Positions 59,687 to 61,182 of a DNA stretch of 64,000 nt are shown one piece after another. The translations under genes and the position numbers were made by a program. Origin of the DNA: Microbacterium azadirachtae (GTDB lineage: Bacteria; Actinomycetota; Actinomycetes; Actinomycetales; Microbacteriaceae); NCBI RefSeq assembly GCF_000956545.1, contig NZ_JYIT01000080.1, positions 1 to 64,000 of the forward strand. The letters are read 5' to 3'. The notes below the pieces were generated by a model. It did no database searches and was not told the DNA's origin. It saw only the letters and a program-made list of their open reading frames with translations. Positions within the stretch are counted from its first letter, which is position 1. Every line of letters starts with the position of its first letter.

Positions 59687-59750
59687 AACCGGTGCCGGTG
59701 TCGGCGACCCGGCGTAGGGTCGAAGACACCCAGCGATCGGAGGCCCGCCA

Positions 59751-60848
59751 ATGACCATTCACGAACGCGAACCAGCATCGGCACGGCCCCTGCTGCATCA
59801 GGGGATCATCCCGTCCTACCTTCTGGCGAAGCTGGCGGAGTCGGAGCGCTACACGCAGGCGGCGGAGGCGGCGCGGCAGACGCTCATCGCGCCGACGCCC
59901 GCGGCCCATCGGTCCCAGCTCCGTCTGTCGATCGACGAGAACGGATCCCTCGTCGCGACGGTCGAAGCCGCGCCGAACCGCACCATCAGCGACGCGCACG
60001 GCACCGAGAGCCTTCCCGGCACGGTCGTGCGCACCGAGGACGAGCCGACCGTCGCCGATGTCGCCGTCAACCAGGCCTTCGACGGGCTGGGGGCGACCTT
60101 CCAGCTGCTGCTCGACGCGTTCCAGCGCAACTCCGTCGACGGCAAGGGTCTCGCGCTCGACGCGACGGTGCACTACGGATCCGGATACGACAACGCCTTC
60201 TGGAACGGCGAGCGGATGGTGTTCGGCGACGGCGACGGCCAGGTGTTCCAGGGCTTCACCGCCTCGACCACGGTGATCGGGCACGAGCTCGGACACGGCG
60301 TGGTCCAGTACACCGCCGGTCTGGAGTACCAGGGGCAGCCCGGCGCGCTGAACGAGTCGATCGCCGACGTGTTCGGGGCGCTCACCGAGCAGCATCTCCT
60401 CGACCAGACGGCCGACGAGGCGACCTGGCTGATCGGCGCGGGCATCTTCACACCGGCCGTGCACGGCAAGGCGCTCCGGTCGATGCTCCATCCGGGCACC
60501 GCCTATGACGACCCCGAGCTCGGCAAGGATCCGCAGCCGGCCGACATGAGCGGCTACGTGACCACCACCGACGACAACGGCGGGGTGCACATCAACTCGG
60601 GCATCCCCAACAGGGCGTTCGCGCTCTTCGCGGTGGAGCTCGGGGGCAACGCCTGGGAGACAGCGGGCTCCGTCTGGTACCGCGCGCTGTCGGGCGGCCT
60701 GCCGGCGTCGTCGACGTTCGCGCAGTTCGCCCGCGCGACCATCGCGGAGGCCGACAAGGTCAGCCGAGCGACAGGCGATGCGGCGCGCATGGCCTGGGCG
60801 TCGGTGGGAGTGATCAAGGCGACGGGCGATGGGCGCTCCGCCGGCTGA
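59751..60848 (+). CDS. M4 (thermolysin-like) metallopeptidase, protealysin type
   Basis: A 365-aa M4 peptidase: short propeptide of protealysin type (about residues 1-45, with the motif-like LLHQGIIPSYLL), then the catalytic domain with zinc site HELGH (178-182) and Glu202 in NESIADVFG, and the acid His in DNGGVHINSGIPN. No Sec signal peptide; protealysins are known to work or leave the cell without one. GGAGG about 9 nt upstream of ATG. Its 3-prime end overlaps the inhibitor gene by 20 nt in another frame. Confidence 0.94.
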   Translation: MTIHEREPASARPLLHQGIIPSYLLAKLAESERYTQAAEAARQTLIAPTPAAHRSQLRLSIDENGSLVATVEAAPNRTISDAHGTESLPGTVVRTEDEPTVADVAVNQAFDGLGATFQLLLDAFQRNSVDGKGLALDATVHYGSGYDNAFWNGERMVFGDGDGQVFQGFTASTTVIGHELGHGVVQYTAGLEYQGQPGALNESIADVFGALTEQHLLDQTADEATWLIGAGIFTPAVHGKALRSMLHPGTAYDDPELGKDPQPADMSGYVTTTDDNGGVHINSGIPNRAFALFAVELGGNAWETAGSVWYRALSGGLPASSTFAQFARATIAEADKVSRATGDAARMAWASVGVIKATGDGRSAG

Positions 60849-61182
60849 CCCGCCTGTCGGGATCCCGTCCGACGCCGATGACGACGACGGCGTCGCGATC
60901 CGTGTCGCGCGCAGCGGAGGCATCGCGGGGATGACGCGGCGGTGGAGCGTGCAGCCCGCCGGCGACGACAGGGAGCAGTGGCTGCTGCTCGTCGACCGCT
61001 GCCCGTGGGATGAGAAGCCGCCGTCCGGCTCCGGCGCCGATCGCTTCGTATGGCGCATCGAAGCCCGCGTCCGCCGTGTGCGGCGCGAGCAGGTGATCCC
61101 GGAGGAGCATCTCTCCGGCCCCTGGCGTGAGCTCGTCGATGCCGTGCGCGCCGCCGACGGCGGAGGCGCCCCGCAGCGGTGA
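60829..61182 (+). CDS. Emfourin-like protease inhibitor
   Basis: A 117-aa protein. VARSGGIAGMTRRWSV followed by a strand-rich domain matches emfourin, the inhibitor gene found next to protealysin-type M4 peptidases. It starts at ATG 60829 inside the protease gene (20-nt overlap), so the pair is translationally linked. The N-terminal 20 residues are acidic and Pro-rich. It probably binds the active site of the adjacent peptidase in the cytoplasm, keeping it off. Family call from pattern memory; structure comparison would confirm. Confidence 0.82.
   Translation: MGAPPADPPVGIPSDADDDDGVAIRVARSGGIAGMTRRWSVQPAGDDREQWLLLVDRCPWDEKPPSGSGADRFVWRIEARVRRVRREQVIPEEHLSGPWRELVDAVRAADGGGAPQR

Follow-up and report, generated by a model that had tools for sequence, protein, structure and literature searches.

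The window, a stretch of 64,000 nucleotides from Microbacterium azadirachtae (contig NZ_JYIT01000080.1), carries near its end two overlapping genes on the + strand: a protealysin-type M4 protease gene (59751..60848; 365 aa) and a gene for a predicted emfourin-family inhibitor (60829..61182; 117 aa). The original prediction had described a 20-nt overlap between a signal-less M4 protease and an emfourin-family gene, and the ORF coordinates reproduce the overlap exactly, at 60829-60848 (+), where one strand is read in two different frames. The inhibitor ATG at 60829 is the earliest start in its frame and the sole start upstream of the conserved domain. Pfam analysis of the 4.04-Mb genome revealed a single Peptidase_M4_C match and a single Emfourin match, and the two adjoin; together with the recurrence of the overlap across the genus, described below, this indicates that the pairing exceeds chance. 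PADLOC defence models gave 0 families at E 0.1 for either window protein.

The protease cleared the Pfam cut-offs of Peptidase_M4 (22.4) with 87 bits and of Peptidase_M4_C (24.4) with 159 bits, and its best relative in a phmmer search of PDB sequences was the protealysin precursor 2vqx (328.6 bits, E 5e-97, residues 18-354), far above the thermolysins. Both M4 catalytic motifs, HExxH and NExxxD, lie within the M4 domains: the zinc-binding HELGH at residues 178-182 (60282..60296, +), with HExxH present in 129/129 genus loci, and NESIAD (60351..60368, +), whose pattern NE[S]-x-[SAG]-D likewise recurs in 129/129 genus loci and which contains Glu202, presumably the third zinc ligand as in other M4 proteases. 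A short N-terminal propeptide-like region with an IIPSYLL motif (59751..59978, +) is suggested by the 2vqx alignment, which begins at residue 18; its end was set by eye. The Pfam propeptide model PLN_propep (PF16485) found no match in the protease even at E 10. Residues 1-45 showed no strongly hydrophobic stretch in a crude test (top 12-residue Kyte-Doolittle mean of 1.33, and 2.44 for the control, one made-up signal-like sequence), in agreement with the description of the protease as signal-less. As a signal peptide is not evident, the protease probably stays inside the cell.

The second gene product matched Emfourin (PF20242) at 36.5 bits, above the curated cut-off of 27, bearing out the predicted family. 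Searched alone against PDB sequences, the window inhibitor found no relative; the inhibitor family profile A3 reached the solved emfourin 6zyg (E 0.00016), entitled 'Protealysin-associated protein' / emfourin (M4in) in the PDB, its GG and Asp columns in register with those of 6zyg. In the loop RSGGIAG (residues 28-34; 60910..60930, +), R28, G30, G31 and G34 are invariant over the 62 rows of alignment A1, and Asp71 (61039..61041, +), a candidate zinc-coordinating residue, is invariant in both A1 and A3. G30, G31 and D71 are invariant over all 38 rows of A3, which takes in fused and proteobacterial inhibitors, and all 127 of 127 unfused genus inhibitors contain both R[STA]GG and D-x-[FY]-x-[WY]. 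This role is assigned to Asp71 by analogy with structure studies of emfourin, which reportedly show an Asp bound to the zinc of the active site and the substrate site filled by a hydrophobic loop; the RSGG loop and the invariant D71 would fit such a mode of inhibition.

Structure prediction gave an inhibitor model with a pLDDT of 82.9 and a pTM of 0.67, which matched 6zyg weakly (Z 4.9, 76 aligned residues, rmsd 5.5, 22% identity) and was outscored by Mago nashi proteins (up to Z 7.9), all rows having Z < 8; a Foldseek search with the model returned nothing at E 0.001. The fold evidence is weak, and emfourin membership is assigned by sequence. The SSI family (Streptomyces subtilisin inhibitor, sermetstatin) also consists of small protease inhibitors, and its fold match was weak (Z ~4); the window inhibitor differs in having no sequence match to solved SSI, and a Z < 8 may reflect a common arrangement only.

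Upstream of the operon lies a promoter-like element, TGTCGG-N10-TAGGGT (59699..59720, +), found by pattern match in genus upstream regions, where nGTCG[GC]-N10-TANNNT was present in 107 of 128. The extended pattern GTCGG-N10-TANNNT-N6/7-ATG occurs in 26 copies in the genome from which the window comes, against 0 for the reversed-pattern control, suggesting a general leaderless-type promoter, and 9 to 61 times per genome in eight genus genomes (control, 0 or 1); a protease-specific promoter was rejected because the motif is widespread across the genome. Of 129 genus loci, 67 have an ABC-transporter ATPase gene on one side and a gene that is uracil-DNA-glycosylase-like on the other, both named by eye, and 53 have neither, in some cases for short flank. 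The window locus sits after a DUF3516 helicase gene, a context common to four other genomes. The locus thus occupies a few stable sites, and with one context on both sides of 67/129 loci the pair looks stably inherited.

To examine the linkage across the genus, we analyzed 149 genomes, of which 129 had a Pfam match to M4_C and 101 one to Emfourin. A genus emfourin profile was built up from the window inhibitor with the downstream ORFs and then scored on those same ORFs. It matched at the main M4 gene in every one of the 129 M4_C genomes, most weakly for a fusion in G032 (32.5 bits, E 4e-9), so the 28 genomes missed by Pfam Emfourin seem to reflect limits of that model. Emfourin was directly downstream of, or fused to, 129 of 130 protealysin-type M4 genes, and Pfam Emfourin had 0 matches in the 20 genomes lacking M4_C. 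Six extra M4 genes (in G049, G087, G092, G100, G101 and G129) had no emfourin by the genus profile. Five of these are long ORFs with far lower scores, 45-85 bits, against the window protease. Thermolysin-type M4 proteases, among them thermolysin, aureolysin and pseudolysin, share the M4 catalytic domain with the window protease and are secreted, with long FTP-type propeptides; L074, the one of the five long ORFs put through Pfam, is of this type, with an FTP match just below the cut-off, and differs from the window locus in that no emfourin was found. The sixth, the second M4 gene of G100 (L147; 329 bits), is protealysin-like with a tachylectin domain, and emfourin was not found beside it.

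Three candidate orphan inhibitors were rejected: a second partial match in G125, whose frame overlies a gene that is ComF-like by eye; a match in G061 that sits in a 2943-aa open frame; and, from the phylum sample described below, G333, with a partial match only and no M4 gene.

The overlap itself recurs. Across the 127 unfused genus pairs, the nearest inhibitor start fell within the protease gene 123 times and the longest start three times more, leaving one gap only; 125/127 had the nearest starts in the common phase. Such an overlap is an ordinary feature in the genus, and its recurrence would fit translational coupling. In one locus (L098, G051) the inhibitor is in the frame of the protease with a stop and a gap between them, which could represent a step from one arrangement, separate or fused, to the other.

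In a phylum sample of 246 genomes, emfourin matched in 17, 16 times beside an M4 gene and once, in G333, partially and without M4. Among the M4 loci fetched (at most 30) there were at least 20 protealysin-type pairs, the window included; the inhibitors of G343, G384 (14.6 bits) and G385 were detected solely in a looser scan. In G373 the emfourin gene is 1.2 kb from the M4 gene. At one protealysin-type locus (L267, G287) the inhibitor was not found, and the N-terminus of the protease looks truncated by eye. A membrane-protein-like gene lies between protease and emfourin in L190 (5064-6149) and in L262 (G373), from Agromyces and a genome of the same family; the intervening proteins are alike by eye, and the L190 copy has no clear Pfam family.

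Protease and inhibitor are also found as one protein. Two genus genomes, G032 and G038, encode both in one ORF, and the G038 protein has a 100% identical counterpart in M. barkeri VKM Ac-1020. A scan of named genomes, for which this M. barkeri fusion served as query, covered the best 80 of 576 relatives, a sample biased towards the query, and placed the inhibitor within the protease ORF at 29 loci and in a separate gene at 48. Further scans recovered the inhibitor in L226 and L227, leaving L210 (Metallococcus carri), a protealysin-type protease with HExxH intact, as the only one of the 80 without it. Stand-alone matches were weak (13-19 bits) in L179, L202, L208, L212, L216 and the fused L153, and the inhibitor lay 1.1 kb away in L190 and 3.1 kb away in L219. 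The inhibitor is thus no strict requirement for the protease, as L210 and L147 are protealysin-type without detected emfourin.

The fusions (L149, L150, L151, L152, L153, L164, L176 and 22 further loci) come mainly from Intrasporangiaceae, together with M. barkeri and M. oryzae. All 29 retain HExxH, NExxxD, RxGG and the D-x-x-x-[YW] Asp motif, and 21 have the exact DNGGVH; the linkers span 10-54 residues, about two thirds of them Ala, Pro, Gly and Ser. The three fusions put through Pfam all had M4, M4_C and Emfourin above cut-off. The M. barkeri fusion was modelled with a pLDDT of 87.9 and a pTM of 0.75, and the model matched 2vqx at Z 48.9 (320 residues, rmsd 1.3); its fold search returned solely metallopeptidase entries among the 50 matches listed, which says nothing on the emfourin fold. 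A quick tree of 160 catalytic domains, thinned by similarity from 225 and with G038 omitted as a copy of L149, required two changes for the fused rows without phages and three with phages. The starred branches force at least two, so there was probably more than one fusion or fission event. The M. barkeri and M. oryzae rows cluster with an Agrococcus MAG, away from the remaining Microbacterium, and L210 forks with three fused rows, which suggests that it lost its inhibitor part.

Homologues of the window protease were also found in viruses. There were 16 phage records with M4 homologues, seven of them Streptomyces phages in which the gene is annotated metalloprotease, and IMG/VR added 29 loci. 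Of the latter, 26 (L313-L338) were kept; L311 and L312, where the contig ends at the gene, and the fragment L339 were omitted. The set contains many near copies, and host DNA in the contigs is possible. HExxH was present in 26/26, and emfourin was detectable beside the protease in 1/26 (L316). Sixteen of the 26 are of the short, ~300-aa protealysin type, none of them with emfourin. A second emfourin profile had no match on the viral-contig loci and missed L316 as well, so divergent viral inhibitors may escape detection. Searched in full, the phage records of Frankenweenie and Satis gave 0 matches to the emfourin alignment, though this search had no positive control.

Emfourin was undetected for the short (~300-aa) protealysins of L306 (Frankenweenie), L307 (Satis), L320-L330, L332 and L334-L337, in which the catalytic motifs are intact and a PPH motif is present. 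In Satis a 95-aa gene with no Pfam match follows the protease with a 4-nt overlap, and in L313 the protealysin gene is followed by a gene that is baseplate-spike-like by eye. One might picture protealysin as a contested weapon between bacteria and phages, guarded in bacteria by an adjacent or fused emfourin, and carried by large actinobacterial phages as a stripped-down, catalytically intact ~300-aa form lacking a detectable inhibitor, which they would turn on host targets such as division or repair proteins, with emfourin doubling as immunity against phage protealysin; we regard this as a long shot. Neither a fused protealysin-emfourin nor a phage protealysin appeared in the titles or abstract openings among the literature matches listed, in a search with subscription journals mostly outside it.

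The closest known system is the pln-m4in operon of Serratia proteamaculans. According to a published account (PMC9505478), Serratia protealysin and emfourin genes share one operon, and emfourin binds protealysin 1:1 in the active-site region. The window pair resembles that operon in being a protease-inhibitor operon with a protealysin-type M4 enzyme and the emfourin GG and Asp columns, and differs in its diverged, actinobacterial inhibitor, whose domain is preceded by ~20 residues and which has a CPW motif, in its 20-nt overlap, and in the lack of a Pfam propeptide match. Taking together the observed families, linkage, overlap, conserved motifs and fusion homologues, we consider it highly likely that the pair is a protealysin-emfourin operon whose inhibitor keeps the protease silent in the producer, and we infer its binding, Asp-zinc contact, translational coupling and regulation as follows. 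The protease would be made without an evident signal peptide, probably as an intracellular zymogen with a short propeptide, and the inhibitor would come from the same message, probably through ribosomes that complete the protease gene and reach the overlapping start. The inhibitor would then bind the protease 1:1 at the active site, its RSGG-[hydrophobic]-x-G loop filling the substrate cleft and its invariant Asp71 extending to the catalytic zinc, and the protease would remain silent in the producer until parted from its inhibitor by release, lysis or inhibitor turnover.

The pairing might in principle be fortuitous, the small gene having no action on the protease, given that an overlap by itself is no proof and that the pair is known here from sequence; the 129/130 linkage in the genus and the in-frame fusions make this hardly credible, and chance pairing was rejected on the genus linkage. 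Another proposal has the protease acting, after delivery, inside other bacteria, with emfourin shielding the producer and its sisters. Enzyme and inhibitor share an operon, the genome has two WXG100 matches (both on other contigs), and, in the Serratia account (PMC9505478), interbacterial and host roles are proposed for protealysin, which cuts FtsZ and RecA. However, the protease shows M4 domains only, none of the seven neighbouring ORFs scanned in Pfam is a secretion gene, synteny is stable across much of the genus, and the fused relatives would arrive pre-inhibited. We therefore consider delivery unlikely, and a self-latent protease fits the natural fusions better than an effector with a separate immunity protein.

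The arrangement had also been likened to a toxin-antitoxin pair; in such a module a labile emfourin would release a self-harming protease under stress. The likeness stands as far as the genes overlap, and no convincing orphan inhibitor was found in the genus sample; deletion of emfourin alone in Serratia, as reported in PMC9505478, makes the optical density fall earlier, and a 19-kb Pseudomonas plasmid has a partial inhibitor match immediately behind a protease match. It is weak in gene order, since the inhibitor gene follows that of the enzyme, in the synteny, stable at 67/129 loci, and in the covalent fusions, which a releasable antitoxin would not need. Apart from the Pseudomonas plasmid, the inhibitor query matched none of 72,556 plasmid records, yet 26 plasmid records have M4 homologues at E 1e-30. 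We accordingly hold an antitoxin role to be improbable. One-protein fusions with intact catalytic and inhibitor motifs argue instead that the primary job of emfourin is to restrain its own enzyme molecule, other roles being possible in unfused lineages.

Collectively, the window pair is well supported by sequence as a new case, from an actinobacterium, of the protealysin-emfourin operon already published, and as such represents known biology; it extends a Gram-negative protease-inhibitor operon to a genus in which most sampled species have one. The fusions and the inhibitor-less viral copies are interesting by-products beyond this pair. The one-protein fusions let the inhibition model be tested on a single polypeptide and constrain the effector-immunity and antitoxin ideas, and the inhibitor-less phage copies offer a natural experiment on free protealysin in cells.
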